Virus record (IMG/VR): IMGVR_UViG_3300025889_001154
Span: 1 to 20,871 of that record
Strand: one strand, 5' to 3'
Origin: a virus
Length of the DNA: 20,871 nt
Shown here: positions 4,141 to 20,871 of the stretch, in pieces
Layout of the letters: every line of letters starts with the position of its first letter
Position numbering within the stretch: the stretch's first letter is position 1
Program-made: the position numbers and the translations under genes
The notes under the pieces: model-generated
The model's input: only the letters and a program-made list of their open reading frames with translations
Told to the model about the DNA's origin: nothing
Database searches by the model: none

Positions 4141-4334
4141 ACTTCGAAACCCTCTTGTTGAACCGTCTCAAGGAAGAGCAGCAGAAGTTTGCTGTTGACG
4201 CCTTGAGACGGCCACAGGAACGCGACGCCTTTGAGTACGGGTTGCGCGTTGGAATATTCGCCGGTTATGAGGCGGCGATCAATGTGCTCTTGAAACTTGT
4301 TGATGAGGAGAAAAACGGTGACAATGACATCTGA
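4137..4334 (+). CDS. Small conserved-looking unknown protein, 65 aa
   Basis: This is a short helical protein with a charged start (NRLKEEQQKFAVDALRRPQERDAF) and a central stretch EYGLRVGIFAGYEAAINVLLKLVDEEK that could form an amphipathic or weakly hydrophobic helix. It resembles small proteins of unknown role near the portal in other phages, but I cannot name a family. Its ATG overlaps the stop of the 47-residue frame (ATGA) and it has only a weak ribosome site, so translation is probably coupled. Its end overlaps the preferred start of the GroES-like gene by 17 bases. A structural or chaperone-accessory role is possible but not shown. Confidence 0.65.
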   Translation: MNFETLLLNRLKEEQQKFAVDALRRPQERDAFEYGLRVGIFAGYEAAINVLLKLVDEEKNGDNDI

Positions 4335-4740
4335 GAACGCTTTGGCAGAGGCGTTTCCGGCGGCAGACGCTGGAGTGCAGCCTTTTGGAAGCCGCGTTCT
4401 GGTTCAAATCCGTACGCCGAAGAGCAAAACTTCTGGCGGCATCATTTTGCACAGCGAGTCGCGCGACACTGAAAAGTGGAACACACAAGTTGCCAAGGTG
4501 ATCAGCATTGGACCACTCGCGTTCAAAAATCGCAACACCATGGAACACTGGCCGGAAGGCTCTTGGTGCAACGTGGGAGACTTTGTTCGGGTGCCGAAAT
4601 ACGGTGGAGACCGTTGGGAGGTGCCTCTTACAAAAGAAACCATGGGCAAAAAAGAGTCAGCAATGTTCGTAATTTTCAATGACCTCGACATCATCGGGCA
4701 GGTAACTGGTGACCCGTTGGCGATCAAGGCGTTCATCTGA
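4318..4740 (+). CDS. GroES-type co-chaperonin
   Basis: This protein likely caps host GroEL and changes its folding chamber for phage proteins, probably the major capsid protein, as T4 gp31 does. The fold signature is clear: PFGSRVLVQIR opens the beta barrel. Next comes a mobile-loop-like stretch KSKTSGGIIL, in which I42-I43-L44 match the GroEL-contacting hydrophobic tripeptide of GroES (IVL in Escherichia coli). Then follow VAKVISIGP, GDFVRVPKYGGDRW and a closing strand FVIFNDLDIIGQV. At 140 residues it is longer than bacterial GroES (about 95) because of N-terminal, central (around LAFKNRNTMEHWPEGSW) and C-terminal extensions. I prefer GTG 4318 because GAGGAG lies seven bases upstream; ATG 4324 would give 138 residues. 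The frame is open further back to TTG 4297, but that has no better site. Family call is firm; the client protein is inferred. Confidence 0.85.
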   Translation: MTMTSENALAEAFPAADAGVQPFGSRVLVQIRTPKSKTSGGIILHSESRDTEKWNTQVAKVISIGPLAFKNRNTMEHWPEGSWCNVGDFVRVPKYGGDRWEVPLTKETMGKKESAMFVIFNDLDIIGQVTGDPLAIKAFI

Positions 4741-10917: not shown

Positions 10918-13900
10918 ATGTCTGACGTTCCGAGCAATTTGATCCCGACCCGCGTCACTCAACTTCCGACTGCGCCGGTTGCGGACGAAAACTCCCTGAT
11001 GATGATTGTCTATCAGGGCAACAACTACCAGATCCGAGTCGGCGACTTGCTTAGTGTCGCTGGAGTGCCGACTTCACGGCAAGTCATCGCTGGAACTGGT
11101 CTCACGGGCGGAGGCGCACTCAGCAGCAACGTGACCTTGAGCGTCGCCAACGGCGGCATCGGCACGACCCAGTTGGCTGCTAGCGGTGTCACTCCTGGAA
11201 CTTACGGCGACGCCACCAACATCCCTGTGTTCATCGTTGATTCGACTGGGCGCGTGACGGCAGCGACAACTGTCCCTGCTTCTGGGGGCGGCGGCGTCCC
11301 AACAACCCGTGAAGTCATTGCCGGAACCGGCTTGAACGGCGGCGGTGCGCTCAGTTCTAATGTCACGTTGAACGCAAACCTTTCCAGCGCAACCCCGTTG
11401 GCTGTCAACACGACAGGTTCTGCTGGCGTTTCCACGGACATCGCTCGTGCTGATCACCAGCACCCTGCTATTGACCTAGCCGACGACGACCAAGTAGACG
11501 GGTTGCTCGGTCTTGATAACGGCGGCACAGGTCGCTCGTTGGTTCCGGAAGCAGGCGCGATCGTTTGGTCTGGTGCTGACGGTCTTTACATCGGTCCAGC
11601 TGGCGCCGTTGGCCAAGTTCTTGTTTCCAACGGCGCGAACGAATACTACTGGGCCAACACACCGACCGATGGTCCGCAGCCTGCGCATTACGTTTACATT
11701 GGACCTTCTAGCGGCGGTCCAGCGGCACCGAATTATCGTTTGTTGGTGAGTGACGATCTGCCTGTCGCAATCGACAACAAGCAGATCACCTCCAGCACGA
11801 TCAACAGCACGTCAATCGGCGCATCTTCGCCTTCGACAGGCGTCTTCACGACAGTTGACGCGACGGACGTAACCGCTTCGCTCGTAGACGCGACCAACGT
11901 CGAAACCTCGAACATCAAGGCAAAAGACGGCACCGCGTCCGCCACGATTGCAGACACGACCGGCTTGATGACGATCGCCTCGTCCGTGCTGACCACCACC
12001 GACATCAACGGTGGCAACATCGACAACACGGTGATCGGCGCGACAACGCCTGTGGCGGGTTCGTTCACGAACCTTGCGGCTGAACGCATCGACATGGACA
12101 CGACCCCACCTGCGCAAGCTGACGCAGAAGGTCGGATGTATTGGAACAGTGACGACAACGCCAAAACTCTCAACATCGGCATGGCCGGTGGCACAGTTGT
12201 CCAGCAAGTCGGCGAAGAGATCTACTACCGCGTCAAAGCGTCTGCCGCGATAAGCAATGGTCAAACCGTGATGTTCACAGGCACGGTCGGCGCGAGCGGA
12301 GGGTTGTTGGCTGCGCCAGCCACAGGTTTGACCGCCACGAACGCTGATTATTACATGGGCGTCGCCACCGAGGACATTGCGCTCAACGGTTGGGGATACA
12401 TCACGCAATTCGGCGTCGTGCGTGGCATCAACACCACCGGTGGCGCAGAAGCGTGGGTTGACGGGCAGACCCTTTATTACAACCCAGCAGTTCCTGGCGG
12501 TCTGACCAAAACAGTCCCCGTGGCTCCAGCGGCAAAGATCGAAGTTGCCTCTGTCATTCACGCAGCTTCTAACGGGTCTCTGTTCGTTCGTGCTGAAATT
12601 GGGTTTAGGCTTTCGCGGCTCAATGACGTTGAAACCGGCACGCCGACAATCGGTGACTTGCTGCAATACACAGCAGGAAACTACTGGACGCACACCCCGA
12701 GCGCTAACGTCAGCGTTGGAGAAGCCACCAACCTCGCGGGTGGTGCAGCCAACAAGATTGCGTATCAAACCGCCGCTGACACGACCAGTTTTATCGACGC
12801 ACCAACCGTCGCGAACACCTTCCTCGAATGGTCTGGTTCTGCTTATCAGTGGTCAACCAACCCGCTCGGAACCGTCACCTCAGTTGGTCTTTCGCTCCCG
12901 AGCGAATTCAATATCACCAACTCACCGGTCACCTCTTCTGGAACTCTGACAGGAAGTTGGTCCAACCAAACAGCGAACTACGTCCTAGCGGCTCCGAACG
13001 GTTCATTCGGCACACCGACCTTCCGTGCTATTGTTGCGGCTGACATCCCGACCCTGAATCAAAACACCACCGGTTCTGCAGGCTCTGTCGTGAATGCTGT
13101 GACTTTCAGCAATACGAGCGGCGGCGTGGTTAACAGCACGTTCAACGGCTCTTCGACCCTGACGGTTGACTACAGCACCGTTGGTGCTCCAAAAGCAGAC
13201 GGCACCGGAGCCAGCGGAAGCTGGGGAATCAGCATCACAGGCAATGCTGCCACAGCCACGAGCGCGACTTCAGCAACCAGCGCAACCACAGCCACAAACA
13301 TCGCCGGTGGTGCTGCAGGGTCTGTTCCTTACCAAACTGGTTCTGGCGCAACCTCGTTGCTGCCTGCAGGGACAGGCGTTTTGGTCGGGGGAGCCACACC
13401 CTCCTACACCACGACCCCGACCCTGACCGGCACGAACTTCAGTGCGATTCCGAACGCGGCTCTGACCAACAGTTCGGTCACCATCGGCTCAACAAGCGTG
13501 GCGCTGGGCGCAACAGCTTCTTCGCTCGCTGGTCTTTCCTCGGTCACATTGACCGGTGATCCAACGACAGCTTTGCAGGCTGCAACAAAGCAGTACGTAG
13601 ACACTTTGGCGGCTAGCGGGATCCATTTCCATGACCCTGTTCGGGTAGAGTCTCCAAATACTGCTGGAAATTTGAACGCCACGTATAACAATGGGGCTTC
13701 GGGCGTTGGAGCAACGCTGACCAATGCTGGGACGCAAACTGCGCTGGTCATTGACGGTGTAACGCTGAACACCAACGACCGCGTGCTGATCTACAATCAG
13801 ACCAATCAGTACGAAAATGGCGTTTACACGGTCACCAACACAGGCTCAGGCTCTACCAACTGGGTGTTGACTCGGGCGACAGACGCAGACACTTATTCCC

Positions 13901-15549
13901 CATTCAGCCCAAATTCTCTGGGACAAGGTGACGCATTTTTCGTCACCTCGGGCGATACAGGAGCAGGTGAAACTTACATCTGCAACACTGTCGGTACGAT
14001 CACTTTCGGCACCACAGCGATCACGTTTGCGCAGGTTTCTTCCGCGCAAGTTTACTCTGCCGGCACAGGGTTGACCCTGACCGGAACGCAGTTCTCTCTG
14101 ACAACCCCTGTTTCTGCATCCAACGGTGGCGTTGGACAGTCGTCTTACACGACAGGCGACATCATCTACGCCACGGGTTCCACAACACTGAGCAAGCTGG
14201 GCATCGGTGCTTCAAGTCGCATCATGACTTCAACCGGCTCGGCTCCAACTTGGACCAATCCTGCGAGCGTCACGGTTGGATCGGCCACGACAGCGACTTC
14301 TGCGACCTCAGCTACCACTGCAACAACAGCGACCAACATCGCTGGCGGTGCAGCCAATAGGATCGCTTACAACACAGGCTCTGGCGCGACGAGTTTCGTT
14401 GTTGCGCCGACGGTTGCAAACACCTATCTCGAATGGTCAGGGTCTGCATTCCAGTGGTCTTCAAACCCGCTCGGTTCTGTAACGAGCGTTAACGTTTCTG
14501 GCGGCACGACCGGTCTAACGACTTCTGGCGGTCCAATCACCAGCAGCGGCACGATCACGTTGGCCGGAACGCTCGCGGTCGCTAACGGCGGCACAGGAGC
14601 AACAACTGCGGGAGGCGCACTCACCAGTCTTGGTGCTTACCCTGCCACCAATCCGTCTGGTTACACCTCCAACACAGGCACCGTCACCAGCGTGACTGGC
14701 GGCTCTTACCTGACTGGCGGCACGATCACGACCAGCGGCACCTTGGCTGTGGACGCAACCTCGGCCAACACAGCTTCCAAGGTTGTGGCGCGTGACGCAT
14801 CAGGCAATTTCTCAGCCGGGACCATTACTGCGAGTTTGAGCGGCAACGCCACGACAGCCACTACCGCTACCAACCAATCTGGCGGTACGGTTAACGCAAC
14901 AACAGGAGCTTTCTCTAGTACGTTATCTGTTACCGGTACAACAACCGTCAATAACTACATTAACCGCATTACAGCACAGGGTAACTCGGCTTGGTTGCAG
15001 CAGGATGGTACAGGTCGTGTTCACTGGTATTGGAATACTTTGGGGGGTACATCTCCCACTTTTACCAACGGGAGTGAAGATGCGGCGGCTGCGAGCCTCA
15101 CTGCTAACAATGGTGGTGCTGGTGGTGCTTTTTTCACTCGTTCAGCAAGTGGGGTAGGTAAATCCGCTGGTGACCCAATCACATGGACGACCACACTTTA
15201 CGCTGACTTAAATACATTAAGTTACAAAGGGAACACGGTTCTTCGCTCGGACAACTACAACTCCTACGCCCCCACACTAACAGGCACAGGCGCTTCCGGC
15301 ACTTGGGGTATTAGTATTAGCGGCAACGCTGCAACAGCCACCACAGCAAGTGCAACAAGCGCAACGCTCACTCGCGGTACATACCTAACGGGCAGCAACT
15401 TCAACGGCTCTGCCGCTACTACTTGGGCTGTAGACGCAACTAGCGCGAACACAGCTTCCAAGGTTGTGGCGCGTGATGCGAGCGGCAATTTCGCAGCCGG
15501 ACAAATAACAGCCACAAGTTACGTCGGCATGAACGGAGGGACGTTCTGA
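10918..15549 (+). CDS. Long repetitive tail fibre protein
   Basis: This 1543-residue protein is very rich in Thr, Ser, Ala, Gly and Asn, as expected for a trimeric beta-structured fibre. Repeated units include REVIAGTGLNGGGALSSNVTL-type blocks (about 51-79 and 128-156) and a 57-residue repeat with IAGGAANRIAY and LEWSGSAFQWS (603-659 and 1138-1194). Others are GASGSWGISITGNAATAT-type blocks and VDATSANTASKVVARDASGNF (from 1278 and from 1505). Two segments look like widespread phage-fibre domains: about 408-568 (with GVATEDIALNGWGYI) and about 900-1042 (with FHDPVRVES and NGVYTVTNTG). I see no endosialidase, peptidase S74 or other self-cleaving C-terminal chaperone. It starts three bases after the zinc-ribbon gene, with GGAG at 10905-10908. 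The receptor-binding role is inferred. Confidence 0.85.
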   Translation: MSDVPSNLIPTRVTQLPTAPVADENSLMMIVYQGNNYQIRVGDLLSVAGVPTSRQVIAGTGLTGGGALSSNVTLSVANGGIGTTQLAASGVTPGTYGDATNIPVFIVDSTGRVTAATTVPASGGGGVPTTREVIAGTGLNGGGALSSNVTLNANLSSATPLAVNTTGSAGVSTDIARADHQHPAIDLADDDQVDGLLGLDNGGTGRSLVPEAGAIVWSGADGLYIGPAGAVGQVLVSNGANEYYWANTPTDGPQPAHYVYIGPSSGGPAAPNYRLLVSDDLPVAIDNKQITSSTINSTSIGASSPSTGVFTTVDATDVTASLVDATNVETSNIKAKDGTASATIADTTGLMTIASSVLTTTDINGGNIDNTVIGATTPVAGSFTNLAAERIDMDTTPPAQADAEGRMYWNSDDNAKTLNIGMAGGTVVQQVGEEIYYRVKASAAISNGQTVMFTGTVGASGGLLAAPATGLTATNADYYMGVATEDIALNGWGYITQFGVVRGINTTGGAEAWVDGQTLYYNPAVPGGLTKTVPVAPAAKIEVASVIHAASNGSLFVRAEIGFRLSRLNDVETGTPTIGDLLQYTAGNYWTHTPSANVSVGEATNLAGGAANKIAYQTAADTTSFIDAPTVANTFLEWSGSAYQWSTNPLGTVTSVGLSLPSEFNITNSPVTSSGTLTGSWSNQTANYVLAAPNGSFGTPTFRAIVAADIPTLNQNTTGSAGSVVNAVTFSNTSGGVVNSTFNGSSTLTVDYSTVGAPKADGTGASGSWGISITGNAATATSATSATSATTATNIAGGAAGSVPYQTGSGATSLLPAGTGVLVGGATPSYTTTPTLTGTNFSAIPNAALTNSSVTIGSTSVALGATASSLAGLSSVTLTGDPTTALQAATKQYVDTLAASGIHFHDPVRVESPNTAGNLNATYNNGASGVGATLTNAGTQTALVIDGVTLNTNDRVLIYNQTNQYENGVYTVTNTGSGSTNWVLTRATDADTYSPFSPNSLGQGDAFFVTSGDTGAGETYICNTVGTITFGTTAITFAQVSSAQVYSAGTGLTLTGTQFSLTTPVSASNGGVGQSSYTTGDIIYATGSTTLSKLGIGASSRIMTSTGSAPTWTNPASVTVGSATTATSATSATTATTATNIAGGAANRIAYNTGSGATSFVVAPTVANTYLEWSGSAFQWSSNPLGSVTSVNVSGGTTGLTTSGGPITSSGTITLAGTLAVANGGTGATTAGGALTSLGAYPATNPSGYTSNTGTVTSVTGGSYLTGGTITTSGTLAVDATSANTASKVVARDASGNFSAGTITASLSGNATTATTATNQSGGTVNATTGAFSSTLSVTGTTTVNNYINRITAQGNSAWLQQDGTGRVHWYWNTLGGTSPTFTNGSEDAAAASLTANNGGAGGAFFTRSASGVGKSAGDPITWTTTLYADLNTLSYKGNTVLRSDNYNSYAPTLTGTGASGTWGISISGNAATATTASATSATLTRGTYLTGSNFNGSAATTWAVDATSANTASKVVARDASGNFAAGQITATSYVGMNGGTF
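14767..14795 (+). repeat. Perfect 29-base direct repeat, copy 1, inside the fibre gene
   Basis: This segment is identical to 15448-15476. It encodes NTASKVVAR within a longer protein repeat that starts at fibre residue 1278. Outside the 29 bases the two copies differ at synonymous sites, so the exact identity is notable. Confidence 0.85.
15448..15476 (+). repeat. Perfect 29-base direct repeat, copy 2, inside the fibre gene
   Basis: Second copy of the repeat at 14767-14795, in the same reading frame and near the 3' end of the fibre gene. Together the copies bracket about 650 bases whose centre has a different base and codon style. Confidence 0.85.
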
Positions 15550-15619: not shown

Positions 15620-15940
15620 ATGGCACAGACAGGCTACACACCGATTCAGCTGTACCGCAGCACGACCGCGAGTGCGGTGCCTTCTGCGGCCAACCTGAAT
15701 CCTGGTGAACTCGCAATCAACATAAACGATGCCGACATGGCTCTCTACGCTGAAAATGCGACAGGAACTGTGACGCGCATCATGAACAATCCGGCGGGTC
15801 TCAAGTACCCTACAGCTGACGGCACCAGCGGTCAGGTGGTTCAGACTGACGGCGCGGGAAATTTGACTTTTGTAACTCCGTCGTCTGGCGGTGTTACGAC
15901 CGGCAAAGCCATTGCGATGGCTATGATCTTTGGATTCTAA
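15620..15940 (+). CDS. Small fibre-associated structural protein, 106 aa
   Basis: The opening AQTGYTPIQLYRSTTASAVPSAANLNPGELAININDADMALY is a pattern I know from N-terminal parts of many phage tail fibres and small tail proteins. Here it is a complete short gene. A linker with GLKYPTADGTSGQVVQTDGAGNLTF follows, and the C-terminus is hydrophobic (GKAIAMAMIFGF). The hydrophobic end may pack into a partner instead of spanning a membrane. AAAGAGG lies eight bases before the ATG. It is the first gene after the promoter candidate at 15561. It is probably a fibre base or adaptor component; the exact role is unknown. Confidence 0.7.
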   Translation: MAQTGYTPIQLYRSTTASAVPSAANLNPGELAININDADMALYAENATGTVTRIMNNPAGLKYPTADGTSGQVVQTDGAGNLTFVTPSSGGVTTGKAIAMAMIFGF

Positions 15941-15952
15941 GGAGCTAACGAA

Positions 15953-16324
15953 ATGGCCAACCCGAATATCGTCAACGTAACCTCGATTTACGGCAACACG
16001 TCGTATCTCATCCCCACGACAACCAGCGCAACAACTTGGACCGCACTGACGCCTGCAAGCGGCACGGTCAACAAGGTCAACAACATCGTCGCCTCGAACG
16101 TGACCGGCTCTGCTGTGGCGGTGACTGTTTCGGTCAATAGCGCGACTGGAGGTGGCGGAACGGCGTATCGAATCGCTTACCAGATCAGCGTTCCGGCTAA
16201 CTCCTCATTGATCATCGTTGACAAGACGACTTCGCTCTACGTGGGCGAGTCGCAGTCTGTGGTCGCAACTGTTGGGACAGCAAACGCCATCGAACTCACA
16301 GCCAGCTACGAAGCACTGACCTGA
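15953..16324 (+). CDS. Small beta-rich structural protein, 123 aa
   Basis: The sequence ANPNIVNVTSIYGNTSYLIP starts the protein. KVNNIVASNVTGSAVAVTVSVNSA and AYRIAYQISVPANSSLIIVDKTTSLYVGESQSVVATVG follow. This alternating beta pattern is familiar from an unassigned, widespread small structural protein of aquatic phages. It lacks Cys and has few charges, which suits an outer particle protein. GGAG is eight bases before the ATG and the gene ends in TGA-TAA. It lies between fibre-related genes, so a tail or fibre-decorating part is likely. Confidence 0.7.
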   Translation: MANPNIVNVTSIYGNTSYLIPTTTSATTWTALTPASGTVNKVNNIVASNVTGSAVAVTVSVNSATGGGGTAYRIAYQISVPANSSLIIVDKTTSLYVGESQSVVATVGTANAIELTASYEALT

Positions 16325-16339: not shown

Positions 16340-17503
16340 ATGTCGATGCGCTATCAGGCCGGTATTCTAACGGCATCGTATTTTCCGTTGAAGGTGCCCA
16401 ACGCGCCTACAATTGGCGCAGCAACCGCTGGCGCTGCTCAAGTTTCGGTTGCTTTCACCGCGCCTTCTGACATTGGCGGAGGAGCAATCACGTCTTATCA
16501 AGTCGTTGTCACGGATTCGTCCAGCGGCGCGGTGTTCACGAACACCGGTGCATCTTCGCCTATCGTTGTGACGGGTTTGACGAACGGCAACACGTACACA
16601 GCAAAAGTCGCGGCAACCAATGCTTTCGGCACTGGCCCGTATAGCGCCAACAGCAGTTCTTTCAGCCCGATCAACCAAGGCCAGCAGGCTTACACCGCAG
16701 CAGGAACCTATTCTTGGATTGCACCGAGTGGTGTGACTAGCGTTTCCGTGGTTGCTGTTGGCGGTGGCGGTTCTGGCGGTTCTGGTTCTGGCGGCGGTGG
16801 CGGCGGTGGCGGTTTAGGCTACAAGAACAACTACACTGTTACGCCTGGAAACAGCTACACAGTTCTTGTCGGGTCTGGCGCAGCAGGAAGACCTTCCGGA
16901 GACGGAAGAGGCTCTGCAGGCGGAGATTCTTATTTCGTTTCTACAGCAGTCGTAAAAGGCGGCGGCGGTGATGGAGGCTGTTTTTACGGAAACACAGCAG
17001 CTGCAGCAGGTGGCACTTATACAGGTGATGGCGGAGGCACCGGAGGATTGGGCGAGTCCACCGGAGGAGCAAGAACCGGCGGTGGCGGCGGCGCAGCAGG
17101 CTATTCTGGCAATGGCGGACTTGGTGAAGGAAGTTCTTCAAACACTCCTGGAGGAAGCGGCTCTGGCGGCGGCGGCGGTGGTGGTGGCTGCTCCAATTAT
17201 TCTACCGTTGATTGGGGGTCTGGCGGTGGCGGCGGCGTAGGATTGCTCGGAGAAGGTTCATCTGGAGCAGGAGGAATCGTCTCTGGGAATTTGGGTTACG
17301 GAGGCTCAGGCGGTTCTGGCGGAAACAATGGTCAAAACGGTGGAACGTCTCCAAGAAAGGGAGGAGACGGAGGAAATTATGGCGCTGGTGGGGGAGGGAA
17401 CTTTAGCTACAACCCGAGCGGTGCCGGTGCAGTCGGCGCAGTCCGAATAATCTGGCCCGGAACAAGCCGTTCGTTCCCGAGCACTAACACGGGGAATCTA
17501 TAA
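16340..17503 (+). CDS. FN3 plus glycine-rich adhesin-like tail protein, paralogue 1
   Basis: Residues about 19-112 form a fibronectin type III domain (NAPTIGAAT, ITSYQVVVTD, GLTNGNTYTAKVAATNAFGTGP). A bridging element from 114 (GQQAYTAAGTYSWIAPSGVTSVSVVAVGGGG) starts a long glycine-rich region to about 365. The protein ends with the tail VRIIWPGTSRSFPSTNTGNL. Long glycine runs in phage receptor-binding proteins can fold as packed polyglycine-II helices, as in the adhesin of Salmonella phage S16; that fold is an inference here. Two cysteines lie in the glycine region (GGCFYGN and GGGCSNY). GGA codons are frequent in its last half, unlike copies 2 and 3. GGAG is eight bases before the ATG, and the stop overlaps the start of copy 2 by one base. 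Confidence 0.75.
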   Translation: MSMRYQAGILTASYFPLKVPNAPTIGAATAGAAQVSVAFTAPSDIGGGAITSYQVVVTDSSSGAVFTNTGASSPIVVTGLTNGNTYTAKVAATNAFGTGPYSANSSSFSPINQGQQAYTAAGTYSWIAPSGVTSVSVVAVGGGGSGGSGSGGGGGGGGLGYKNNYTVTPGNSYTVLVGSGAAGRPSGDGRGSAGGDSYFVSTAVVKGGGGDGGCFYGNTAAAAGGTYTGDGGGTGGLGESTGGARTGGGGGAAGYSGNGGLGEGSSSNTPGGSGSGGGGGGGGCSNYSTVDWGSGGGGGVGLLGEGSSGAGGIVSGNLGYGGSGGSGGNNGQNGGTSPRKGGDGGNYGAGGGGNFSYNPSGAGAVGAVRIIWPGTSRSFPSTNTGNL

Positions 17504-18648
17504 TGCCTAATTTCAACGGAATGTGGACCTCCCGTCAGCAGATGCAGGCTCGCGGGGCGAATATTTGGCCTGCCGCTCCTGGTGCGCCTACGATTGGCGC
17601 AGTAACCATTGTTAACAACACTACGGTGGCTGTTAATTTCACTGCCCCGAGTTCAGCAGGCTACCCCACTGCTTTGACTTACACTGCCACGTCTAGTCCG
17701 GGCGGTATCACTGCTACCGGTTCAAGTTCTCCGATAAATGTTGCCGGGCTGACCACTGGGCAGACTTACACTTTTACGGTCACAGCGACGAACGCTACGG
17801 GCACCGGCCCTGCTAGCGCGGCTAGCGCCCCGATAACGGTTGAAGTAATCGGTCAACAAGCCTACACCGCTGCCGGAACTTATAGCTGGGTTGCTCCGGC
17901 TGGAGTAAGTTCAGTTAGCGTCGTCTGTGTTGGTGGCGGGGGCGGCGGAGGCGGAGGTTACGCCGGAGGCTGTAGTTATTACAACGGTAGCGGGGGTGGT
18001 GGCGGTGCGCTTGCTTACGCTAACAATATATCTGTTACTGCCGGCAGCAGCTACACCGTTGTGGTTGGTGCGGGTGGTAGCAGCAACGGTGCTACTGCCG
18101 GGTCTTCTTCTTTTAACTCTACTTCTTGCCGGGCGGGCGGCGGTGTTAGCGGTTCTACTGGCTCTAGCGGCAGAACTGGCGGCACTGTGCTCAATGGTAC
18201 GGGTGGTTCCGGAGGCACCGGTAACTACAACGGTTCCAGCGGTGGTGGTGGTGGGGGTGCCGGAGGATATGCTGGTAACGGCGGAAACGGCGGCGGCTAC
18301 TCGACTTCAGGTTCTTCTGGTTCTGGCGGCGCGGGCGGTGGCGGTGCCGGTGGTTCCCCAGCCGTGGGTGGCGGAGGCGGCGGCGTTGGTTTGCTAGGTC
18401 AAGGTAGCAGCGGGGCCGGGGGCACAGGCGGAACCACTAACGGTGGAACTGGACAGGGCGGCTCAGGAGGCGGTTCGGGTTCTTCAATTCCAAGCAGACC
18501 CGCTGGTGGCGCGATTTACGGCGGCGGCTCGGGAGGAGATTCTAACAGCTCGCAATACGGGTTCGTGGTTGGCGCTGTAGGCGCAGTGCGTATAATTTGG
18601 CCGGGCACCACTCGTTCGTTCCCTTCAACCAACACCGGTAATCTGTAA
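17503..18648 (+). CDS. FN3 plus glycine-rich adhesin-like tail protein, paralogue 2
   Basis: The N-terminus has GMWTSRQQMQARGANIWPAAPGAPTIG, a leader shared with copy 3 in outline. An FN3 domain (about 22-115) follows, then the bridge GQQAYTAAGTYSWVAPAG from 117, a glycine-rich region and the conserved end RSFPSTNTGNL. Three cysteines (VVCVGG, GGCSYYN, STSCRAGG) match those of copy 3 in position and context. Between the shared ends, the glycine-rich parts differ in order and length. The start ATG overlaps the stop of copy 1 as TAATG. Likely a receptor-binding adhesin; the receptor is unknown. Confidence 0.75.
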   Translation: MPNFNGMWTSRQQMQARGANIWPAAPGAPTIGAVTIVNNTTVAVNFTAPSSAGYPTALTYTATSSPGGITATGSSSPINVAGLTTGQTYTFTVTATNATGTGPASAASAPITVEVIGQQAYTAAGTYSWVAPAGVSSVSVVCVGGGGGGGGGYAGGCSYYNGSGGGGGALAYANNISVTAGSSYTVVVGAGGSSNGATAGSSSFNSTSCRAGGGVSGSTGSSGRTGGTVLNGTGGSGGTGNYNGSSGGGGGGAGGYAGNGGNGGGYSTSGSSGSGGAGGGGAGGSPAVGGGGGGVGLLGQGSSGAGGTGGTTNGGTGQGGSGGGSGSSIPSRPAGGAIYGGGSGGDSNSSQYGFVVGAVGAVRIIWPGTTRSFPSTNTGNL

Positions 18649-18663
18649 ACAAAGGAGAAAACC

Positions 18664-19146
18664 ATGGAACTTTTCATTCGCATCAAAGACGGCCAACCTT
18701 TTGAGCACCCCATTTTCGGCGACAATTTTCGGCAGGCATTCCCTGACGTAGACGTCAACAACCTGCCTCCTGAATTCATGCGCTTTGAAAGAATTGAAAG
18801 ACCTCAAGTCGGCCCTTATGAGATTTACGAAGGTGTGACTTACGAAATCCAAAACGGTGTCTGCAAAGACGTACATCACGTACGCCAGATGTCTGCTGAA
18901 GAAAAATCAATCCGCATGAATGAAATTAAGATTGAAGTCATTGAGGGGGTTGAAAATTTGAAAAAATGGGCGGCGGCTCGGAAACTAGAAGACGCTGAAG
19001 GTATGCAAGAGAAATGGCAAAAGTACATCGACGGCCTCAACGCTGTTTCTTTTGAAGGCGACCCGGTGCTTATAGTTCTGCCGATTCCGCCCAACATCGA
19101 AGCCCAGCTTTCAGCTAACGGAGGTGCTCCCAATGTTATCGGCTAA
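18664..19146 (+). CDS. Probable tail fibre assembly protein, 160 aa
   Basis: The opening MELFIRIKDGQPFEHPIFGDNFRQAFPD and the following NNLPPEFMRFERIERP and YEIYEGVTYEIQNGVCKDVHHVRQMSAEEK recall small proteins found next to fibre genes in aquatic phages and thought to help fibre folding or assembly. A charged helical part (about 74-120) comes next. The chain ends with LPIPPNIEAQLSANGG. Hydrophilic, without membrane or enzyme motifs. AAAGGAG lies six bases before the ATG. Directly following copy 2 of the adhesins, it is a candidate chaperone for one or more of them. Its 3' end overlaps the cupin gene by 14 bases. Base composition is more AT-rich than its neighbours. The chaperone role is inferred from position and general likeness. 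Confidence 0.6.
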   Translation: MELFIRIKDGQPFEHPIFGDNFRQAFPDVDVNNLPPEFMRFERIERPQVGPYEIYEGVTYEIQNGVCKDVHHVRQMSAEEKSIRMNEIKIEVIEGVENLKKWAAARKLEDAEGMQEKWQKYIDGLNAVSFEGDPVLIVLPIPPNIEAQLSANGGAPNVIG

Positions 19147-19432
19147 CTACCTCAAGGACGTCGGAGATCTGGTAGGTGTAGTATACACTTTTGAAAATGA
19201 AGGTGACATTCTACCTAAACACTCTCATACTGAAGTCAGCGCGCACATCACGATCGTGTGTAGCGGGCGGATAAAAGCGTATTCTCATGACTGGGAAATC
19301 GAAGCCGTTCCTGGGCAGGTTTTGAATTTTCTAGCTAACCAGCCTCATGAGTTCAAAGCGTTGGAACCGAACACTAAAATCGTAAACATCGTTAAAACTC
19401 ATAATGGTGATAACGAACAGGTGGATCTATGA
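19133..19432 (+). CDS. Small single-domain cupin protein, 99 aa
   Basis: The chain fits a cupin beta barrel. Motif 1 reads G24-x5-H30-x-H32-x5-H38-x6-G45 (GDILPKHSHTEVSAHITIVCSG). The usual glutamate slot is taken by H38, with E34 nearby. Motif 2 has G61 and H72 at the expected distance (PGQVLNFLANQPHEF). So H30, H32, H38 and H72 could bind a metal. Proteins of this kind occur beside tail genes of some phages, but whether they are enzymes, sugar binders or virion parts is not known to me. I chose ATG 19133 because GGAGG lies eight bases upstream. A GTG at 19124 is in frame but overlaps that ribosome site. The gene overlaps its neighbour upstream by 14 bases and the next start by ATGA. Confidence 0.75.
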   Translation: MLSANYLKDVGDLVGVVYTFENEGDILPKHSHTEVSAHITIVCSGRIKAYSHDWEIEAVPGQVLNFLANQPHEFKALEPNTKIVNIVKTHNGDNEQVDL

Positions 19433-20583
19433 GCGAGCAATACCCCGGAGGCTGGATTACTAAATCTCCGCCGACCCCTAACGGTAGCACTGCGCCGGGC
19501 CTCTGGACATTGAGCCAACAGGCTGGTTATAGTAAGCAAAATCTTTGGCCTGTTGTTCCTGGCGCTCCCACGATTGGAACCGCGACAGCGAACAATTCTC
19601 TCGGCGCCAGCGTTACTTTTACGGCTCCCGCTAACACAGGCAGTTCGGCTATCACGCAGTACACGGTGACTTCTAGCCCCGGCGGTTTTACTGCTACGGG
19701 GGCTACTTCTCCTATTGTAGTGAGCGGTCTAACTGACGGGGCAAGCTACACGTTCACCGTGACTGCTACTAACGGCGCGGGCACTGGCCCGGCATCTGCA
19801 GCGAGCAATAGCATAACCGCCTCTGCCGCAGGGCAGCAAGCATACACCTCGGCAGGCTCTTATAGCTGGGTTGCGCCTGCGGGGGTCACATCAGTTTCTG
19901 TTGTCTGCGTAGGCGGCGGCGGTGCTGGAGGTGGCGGATATGCAGGGGGTTGTAACTATTACAATGCCAGCGGCGGCGGTGGTGGCGCGCTCGCATACGT
20001 GAACAACATTTCCGTGACGCCGGGCAACTCTTACGCGGTGGTTGTAGGTAATGGAGGCTCAGGCAACGGCGGTGCTGGTGGCGTGTCATCTTTCATAAGC
20101 ACAACTTGCCGAGCTAACGGAGGCGGCGGTGGAAACACTTCTGGCGGAGGCGGATCTGGGGGTACGGTCGCCAACGGCAGCGGCGGTGCTGGTGGTAACG
20201 GCGGTTCTGCTGGGCCGGGAGGCGGAGGCGGTGCGGGTGGTTACTCAGGCAGCGGCGGTGCCGGTAGTACCGGCACAGGTACCAGCGGTTCCGGTGGGGC
20301 CGGTGGCGGTGGCGGTGGTCTGAACGGCGGCGGCGGTGTCGGTATTCTCGGGCAAGGTTCTAACGGCTCGGGTAGCTCTGGCCACGGCGGAGGCGGCTCC
20401 GGCGGCAGTAGCTCAAGTTGGATCGGGAACCGCCCGCATGGTGGCGGTTTGTACGGCGGAGGCACAGGCGGAGACGCAAATTACTATCAGGCCGGTTCGG
20501 TTCAAGGTGCGCCCGGTGCTGTGCGTATCATTTGGCCCGGCACTAGCCGTTCTTTCCCGTCTACTAACACAGGAAACCTTTGA
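19429..20583 (+). CDS. FN3 plus glycine-rich adhesin-like tail protein, paralogue 3
   Basis: The leader has LWTLSQQAGYSKQNLWPVVPGAPTIG, followed by an FN3 domain (about 38-133) with PGGFTATGATSPIVVSGLTDG. The bridge GQQAYTSAGSYSWVAPAG begins at 135. The glycine-rich region ends in the same RSFPSTNTGNL tail as the other two copies. It is closest to copy 2: both have YAGGCNYYN/YAGGCSYYN, ALAYVNNISV/ALAYANNISV and three cysteines in the same places. DNA identity is much lower than protein identity in these shared parts, so the duplication is not recent. The ATG overlaps the stop of the cupin gene. Likely a receptor-binding adhesin. Confidence 0.75.
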   Translation: MSEQYPGGWITKSPPTPNGSTAPGLWTLSQQAGYSKQNLWPVVPGAPTIGTATANNSLGASVTFTAPANTGSSAITQYTVTSSPGGFTATGATSPIVVSGLTDGASYTFTVTATNGAGTGPASAASNSITASAAGQQAYTSAGSYSWVAPAGVTSVSVVCVGGGGAGGGGYAGGCNYYNASGGGGGALAYVNNISVTPGNSYAVVVGNGGSGNGGAGGVSSFISTTCRANGGGGGNTSGGGGSGGTVANGSGGAGGNGGSAGPGGGGGAGGYSGSGGAGSTGTGTSGSGGAGGGGGGLNGGGGVGILGQGSNGSGSSGHGGGGSGGSSSSWIGNRPHGGGLYGGGTGGDANYYQAGSVQGAPGAVRIIWPGTSRSFPSTNTGNL

Positions 20584-20594
20584 TGGAGGAATGA

Positions 20595-20871
20595 ATGCTT
20601 GAAACGCTGTTAGGAGGGGTCTTTGGAGGCGTGCTGCGGCTTGCGCCGGAAGTCTTCAAGATCTTCGACAAGAAGAATGAGCGGTCGCACGAGTTGGCGA
20701 TGCTCAATGCAGAAATGGAGTTCACTCGTCTGCGCGGCGAGATAGCCATGCGACAAACCGAAGCCGCCATGACCGTTGCGGAACTGGACACAATGGCCGA
20801 GGCGTTCAAAGAACAAAGCCGCACGGCGTCCAATGCGGGGCGGTTCGTTTCTGCGATCTCTGCTCTGGTGC
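20595..20871 (+). CDS. Probable holin-like or pre-lysis phage protein, 3'-partial
   Basis: The frame runs from ATG 20595 off the window end (92 full codons). It begins MLETLLGGVFGGVLRLAPEVFKIFDKKNERSHELAM, a hydrophobic/amphipathic start followed by a charged coiled coil (MEFTRLRGEIAMRQTEAAM). I know this layout from a common phage gene found just before lysis genes, usually with membrane segments near its C-terminus, which is cut off here. GGAGG lies five bases before the ATG; an ATG at 20591 is in another frame and stops at once. It follows copy 3 of the adhesins by 11 bases. The holin role is tentative. Confidence 0.55.
   Translation, partial: MLETLLGGVFGGVLRLAPEVFKIFDKKNERSHELAMLNAEMEFTRLRGEIAMRQTEAAMTVAELDTMAEAFKEQSRTASNAGRFVSAISALV

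Follow-up and report, generated by a model that had tools for sequence, protein, structure and literature searches.

Fibre genes, leaders and slot order

The window, meaning the whole stretch of DNA analysed, is IMG/VR virus record IMGVR_UViG_3300025889_001154 (20,871 bases), and our subject is a set of three putative receptor-binding fibre genes within it together with their small companion genes, in particular the gene for a 160-amino acid (aa) protein, gpX. The three fibre genes define slots alpha, beta and gamma (proteins A, B and C), named by their differing N-terminal leaders. The tips of these and related proteins are coded V (glycine-rich, VRIIW/FPSTNT end), S (glycine-rich, SITF-like end), R (Lcl_C lectin) and L/F (the large DUF7483 and laminin-G kinds), and the partner gene families P0 (gpX), P1, P2 and F1. 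The genes on which the analysis turns are:

15953..16324, plus strand: 123-aa protein ('MANPNIVNV...'), invariant companion of the arrays
16340..17503, plus strand: slot alpha fibre, 387 aa; motif I leader at about residues 1-18, FN3 domain at 29-106, V tip at about 114-387
17503..18648, plus strand: slot beta fibre, 381 aa; motif II leader at about residues 1-24, FN3 domain at 28-108, V tip
18664..19146, plus strand: gpX, 160 aa; family P0, predicted to chaperone V-type tips
19429..20583, plus strand: slot gamma fibre, 384 aa; motif I+II leader at about residues 1-43, FN3 domain at 46-127, V tip at about 134-384

A preliminary description of this DNA had recognised three paralogues of similar length with a common FN3 domain and a glycine-rich body, and the open reading frames of 387, 381 and 384 aa bear this out. 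All three proteins match Pfam fn3 (E 1e-6 to 2e-10), Gly_rich_2 (PF21722; E 1e-7 for alpha, 2e-4 for beta and 7e-7 for gamma) and phrog_4474, a family of unknown function (E 6e-42 to 2e-48); for PF21722, alpha and gamma pass the curated cut-off of 24.3 bits with 32.5 and 29.9 bits, and beta lies slightly under it with 21.8. The QQAYT bridge that had been described is present in all three (GQQAYT.AG.YSWVAP), not as a separate element but as the first strand of the glycine-rich domain. The common C-terminal end is also real, with agreement at 23-24 of the last 25 positions. Nucleotide identity at these shared ends is 57-59/78 and only 8-9 of 25 codons are identical; since the protein is near-identical while synonymous sites are strongly diverged, selection on the protein preserves the shared ends, and recent gene conversion or DNA copying is rejected as their source.

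Three other statements of the preliminary description, that the genes lie in a row, share a leader and differ mainly in the glycine-rich body, had to be revised. Alpha and beta are adjacent, the beta start overlapping the alpha stop by 1 nucleotide (nt), but gamma is set apart by the gpX gene (18664-19146) followed by a cupin-like gene (19124-19432). Alpha begins MSMRYQAGILTASYFPL, beta begins MPNFNGMWTSRQQMQARGANIWP and gamma, whose leader is bipartite, begins MSEQYPGGWITKSPP...APGLWTLSQQAGYSKQNLWP. The beta and gamma tips are 73% identical, whereas their leaders are clearly different.

Related loci were fetched by the capsid protein (80 loci), gpX (36), the gamma leader (80) and the beta leader (80), the fetches by gamma and beta leaders alone being blind to tips. 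Leader profiles identified 157 loci with at least two leaders, de-duplicated to 92 clusters, among which the order was alpha-beta-gamma in 69, beta-gamma in 15 and alpha-beta in five, with two double-motif leaders in the remaining three; no other slot order occurred in these clusters. As a leader-blind check, 11 capsid-fetched loci extend to the 123-aa gene; 10 leave space downstream of it, and nine of these 10 carry leaders, none breaking the order; locus L036 has divergent look-alikes only. The end of the 123-aa homologue is followed after a gap of 0-19 nt by alpha in 61 of 61 arrays, and in 12 two-slot arrays it directly precedes a first gene whose leader has both alpha and beta motifs.

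Leader motifs were scored with profiles against shuffles and counted above the 99% shuffle level. Motif I was found in 69/69 alpha, 1/69 beta and 58/68 gamma leaders, and motif II in 0/69, 69/69 and 60/68, respectively. The fused first leaders of the two-slot arrays contain motif I in 11/12 and motif II in 12/12 cases, and their gamma partners in 8/12 and 11/12. Given the motif content of the fused leaders, two-gene and three-gene arrays seem to hold an equal docking-motif inventory, complete arrays appearing to have two copies each of motifs I and II, distributed as I / II / I+II or as I+II / I+II.

Tip exchange and tip-specific partner genes

Behind these leaders the arrays carry two glycine-rich tip kinds, an Lcl_C lectin, DUF7483 and a laminin-G/concanavalin A lectin, the non-glycine tips being, to judge by their domain matches, of adhesion type. 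It had been proposed that in related phages copy number and glycine-rich regions might vary while the ends stay fixed. Slot number does vary (two or three) and tips vary even to non-glycine folds, but the fixed part is the leader, and the shared C-terminal end is confined to a single tip kind. In an exchange test of 78 V-tip proteins, with the best match taken from another cluster (chance 33%), the nearest neighbour of the leader and FN3 domain was in the same slot for 75/78 proteins and that of the tip for 36/78, with slight slot memory kept in the tips (p 0.02). V, S and R tips are evenly distributed over the slots (p 0.73), and L/F tips are nearly confined to gamma. Mapped on a tree of the 123-aa protein, which is weakly supported because the protein is short, tip kind changed at least 25 times in alpha, 22 in beta and 29 in gamma. 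The final strand of S-type tips (YKWTSSGSITF) resembles the first Gly_rich_2 strand of V-type tips (L088, 6273-8478; L130, L136 and others), as if the two putative glycine-rich domains were circularly permuted relative to each other.

Each tip kind travels with its own small gene. Directly downstream pairs number 35 for V-P0, 35 for S-P1, 10 for R-P2 and 16 for L/F-F1, and cross-pairs are almost nil; the single V-P1 pair is an S tip typed as V by pattern (L156 beta, which ends like S), leaving no true cross-pairs of V tips with P1 or P2 and reducing the V-tip arrays that truly lack P0 from six to five. Among complete arrays, P0 is present in 34/40 with a V tip versus 0/36 without, P1 in 31/32 with an S tip versus 0/44 without, P2 in 10/11 with an R tip versus 0/65 without, and F1 in 13/19 with an L/F tip versus 1/57 without. 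Five mixed arrays (L090, L099, L108, L213 and L217) serve as a within-genome control, and in these each partner gene stands behind the tip to which it corresponds. The N-terminal parts of the partner families vary with the kind of tip; F1 matches Pfam Phage_tail_APC (PF16778), and the gpX C-terminus has a weak likeness to the F1 family (hhalign probability 23%). No gpX relatives were found in bacterial genomes. Two arrays have two gpX-family genes each (L085, 2324-4398; L266, 3895-5147), and in L085 each stands behind its own V-tip gene. In 16 clusters the array contains, or is closely followed by, a putative 2OG-Fe(II) oxygenase gene (PF13759, family F3; e.g. L060, 8614-9291), and 15 of these clusters have a V-type glycine-rich tip; shared lineage is a simpler explanation of this association than modification of tip residues.

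AlphaFold2 models built with natural relatives had mean confidence scores (pLDDT) of 87.9 for gamma and 91.5 for gpX. Residues 133-370 of the gamma model align with the fibre of cyanophage Pam3 (7ypx_A) at Z 18.3, with a root-mean-square deviation of 2.5 Å over 179 residues and 31% identity; a second Pam3 fibre match reached Z 17.2 and a Bxb1 tail-tip protein Z 14, and residues 41-135 match many FN3 domains. The modelled tip has a TNF-like plus a glycine-rich distal domain, as in Pam3 gp24. Its leader is predicted to form one short helix (28-36) before the FN3 domain, and the long N-terminal alpha-helical docking bundle of gp24 type is not present in the gamma model; gamma therefore shares the gp24 tip fold, and the whole protein is not classed as gp24 because the leader differs. 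The gpX model has an N-terminal beta part and C-terminal helices, the architecture of Tfa and Phage_tail_APC proteins, and fold comparison links it to viral proteins with the name 'Phage tail assembly chaperone' (E to 2e-8). Foldseek of gpX against the PDB gave no match at E 0.001; against PDB sequences the tip and P1 partner profiles had no match and the gpX profile nothing convincing. The gpX gene (18664-19146) had been overlooked in the preliminary description, and it is a probable explanation of how such tips fold.

Proposed assembly and competing explanations

Slot-specific leaders occur in constant order, tips are exchanged across slots and phages, and each tip kind has its own small gene. 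From this we consider it likely that the region encodes a receptor-binding apparatus of modular build, in which three fixed slots have constant docking addresses, interchangeable tips and a chaperone for each tip kind. The leaders would be docking addresses on the virion, possibly upon the invariant 123-aa protein, a candidate docking partner, and the FN3 domain would be a spacer. Each tip would fold as a trimer resembling Pam3 gp24, with variable distal loops binding a surface receptor. In such an assembly gpX would act as a Pam3-gp25/Tfa-like chaperone that folds its kind of tips in all three slots and leaves after folding, probably forming no permanent part of the virion. Recombination events that join a leader/FN3 part to a different tip, and bring the matching chaperone gene with it, would alter specificities one by one without disturbing assembly. 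The earlier idea, that of several receptor specificities or a hetero-oligomeric tip, is backed in its general outline by the distinct leaders fixed in order, the exchange of tips and the lectin-like or fibre-like domains among the tip kinds of relatives.

The motif inventory allows a further, tentative suggestion, which we regard as possible rather than probable. The set of docking sites may be fixed, a third tip being accommodated by a bipartite address split between two proteins, so that alpha and beta would form a complementary pair at neighbouring positions, perhaps on the 123-aa protein. That alpha and beta might dock next to each other is suggested by the motif counts, and the fused alpha+beta leaders only hint at N-termini joined in one tail complex.

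Several points weigh against the modular apparatus. Fixed slot order alone is expected from common descent, and virion docking, trimers and receptor binding are read here from genes and models. Five V-tip arrays (L124, L127, L190, L194 and L251) lack P0, including in the rest of their contigs, suggesting that gpX is either not strictly required or encoded off-contig. The p-values are inflated because related contigs are not independent, and there are only four independent supported pairs, all of them concordant or neutral. Moreover, gpX has no Pfam chaperone match, for which reason we term it chaperone-like and not a Pfam member, and its similarity to the solved Pam3 gp25 is weak (Z 2.9).

Among other explanations, the best placed is that gpX and the other partners are accessory tip proteins that remain attached to the fibre and themselves bind receptors, like TfaMu of phage Mu. 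Partner kind following tip kind would fit such a role, and TfaMu remains in the virion (PMC9608196). We nevertheless find it rather unlikely, as the nearest described pair, Pam3 gp24-gp25, has a partner absent from virions and the gpX model has an assembly-chaperone architecture. Plain paralogous amplification, with one adhesin gene duplicated twice within this lineage for dosage or slow diversification and without dedicated slots, would suit the window taken by itself, where all tips are of one kind and those of B and C are so similar. It is made improbable by the related arrays, in which leaders are slot-specific over 92 clusters yet tips are exchanged between slots, and unrelated tip folds stand behind the same leaders in many arrays. 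That the three are secreted or surface proteins acting on infected cells is conceivable for a PHROG family with no assigned function, but very improbable for genes that sit in a structural gene block with a tail-assembly-chaperone family among the downstream genes, whose leaders also bear tips from families with a tail-fibre or virion-structural annotation, and whose fold has its Pam3 homologue in a tail fibre detected in virions.

Known multi-receptor tails and neighbouring genes

Multi-receptor phage tails are known from few cultivated phages, and mostly as tailspikes. The dozens of natural uncultured examples analysed here reveal which parts are fixed (the proposed addresses), which are swapped (the tips) and which travel together (tip and putative chaperone), so that rules of tail-fibre exchange become testable from sequence. 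They also suggest functions for the unnamed families phrog_4474 and phrog_7759, the gpX family and the 123-aa protein, and offer a way to predict from a contig the number and kinds of receptor-binding tips of an uncultured phage.

The closest comparison is with Pam3 gp24/gp25 (PDB 7ypx, 7yfw; PMC9608196), which share the glycine-rich tip fold and a small adjacent partner with beta and helical parts. Pam3 gp25 binds gp24 in a 3:3 ratio and was not detected in virions; its variable N-terminal beta-sandwich grips the tip and its helical C-terminus trimerises (PMC9608196). The partners in the arrays are divided in a similar way, their N-terminal parts varying with tip kind. In Pam3 a single fibre has a long helical domain for docking at its N-terminus, whereas the present arrays have three fibres with short leaders and FN3 domains, tips exchanged among slots and one partner gene for several tips. 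The gp38 adhesin of T-even phages and S16, in which S16 gp38 has a glycine-rich architecture similar to that of Pam3 (PMC9608196), resembles the system in the idea of a glycine-rich receptor-binding tip; S16 gp38 is, however, a separate protein at the gp37 tip, and in the present proteins leader, FN3 domain and tip form one chain. No window protein matched the Pfam gp38 family at E 0.1, and S16 gp38 (6F45) was absent among the structure matches listed for the gamma model, whose glycine-rich lattice fold matches that of Pam3.

The branched tailspikes of Ackermannviridae (CBA120, S117; PMC8825819, PMC11414711) likewise combine several receptor-binding proteins with conserved N-termini and exchangeable distal parts. 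The arrays have the distinct proteins with conserved specific N-termini that characterise branched complexes, receptor binding being suggested by their tip folds. The Ackermannviridae tailspikes are large and have long N-terminal domains for anchoring and assembly, whereas the leaders here span 18-43 residues, the tips are glycine-rich or lectin-like and the partner genes are specific to tip kind. In the Alteromonas phage modules A5/V22 (PMC10579305) a fibre and its cognate chaperone are shared between distant phages; these have one fibre-chaperone pair per module, in contrast to the three slots set by leaders and the four or more kinds of tip-partner pair in the arrays. The metagenome-assembled phage DSL-LC04 (OR003939) has a 123-aa homologue, a fused-leader glycine-rich fibre, a P1-type partner and a gamma-leader lectin fibre; it differs in having two slots, and its genes are annotated merely as putative lectin, hypothetical protein and concanavalin A-like lectin. 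Precedents thus exist for each element: glycine-rich tips, fibre chaperones, multi-receptor tails, and the exchange of module and chaperone (PMC10579305). The combination of short fixed addresses, fold-independent tip exchange and tip-kind chaperones was not found in the literature searched, in which few subscription journals were covered. The system extends known multi-receptor phage tails and founds no new class.

The window portal shares 50% identity with the portal of Caulobacter phage RW, 39% with that of CRP-901/902 and 32% with that of HTVC027P. In the examined stretches of RW, CRP-902 and HTVC027P neither a leader nor a gpX homologue could be identified convincingly, and matches to the 123-aa protein were marginal at best (E 0.005 or worse); a tblastn search of 50,697 phage records with alpha and gpX as queries found no match. 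The capsid gene of the group occurs in 23 metagenome-assembled genome (MAG) loci (L273-L295), which look like mis-binned virus contigs; the host is not inferable from the MAG bins because these capsid-bearing contigs are binned to many phyla.

Three further genes lie beside or within the array:

10918..15549, plus strand: 1543-aa fibre-like protein; upstream neighbour, membership of the slot system not implied
15620..15940, plus strand: 106-aa protein with a fibre-like N-terminus and C-terminal end ...GKAIAMAMIFGF; often upstream of the array
19124..19432, plus strand: cupin-like 102-aa gene between gpX and gamma; sub-threshold Cupin_2 match (E 5e-4)

The 1543-aa protein had zero Pfam or PHROG matches at the thresholds used. 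The 106-aa protein has weak PHROG matches to tail-fibre N-termini, and 41 of 61 arrays encode a relative of it upstream of alpha. The cupin-like gene is probably accessory; further cupin-like genes lie inside or beside related arrays (L085, L099, L156, L163 and L266). Within the head gene block is a GroES co-chaperonin-like gene (phrog_3188, 4297-4740), also annotated in related Caulobacter, Roseobacter and Pelagibacter phages. A 5.8-kb contig (L083, 2437-5809) that is 100% identical to the window end across 2436 nt reveals the genes beyond gamma, among them the one that starts at 20595 and a gene resembling lysozyme.

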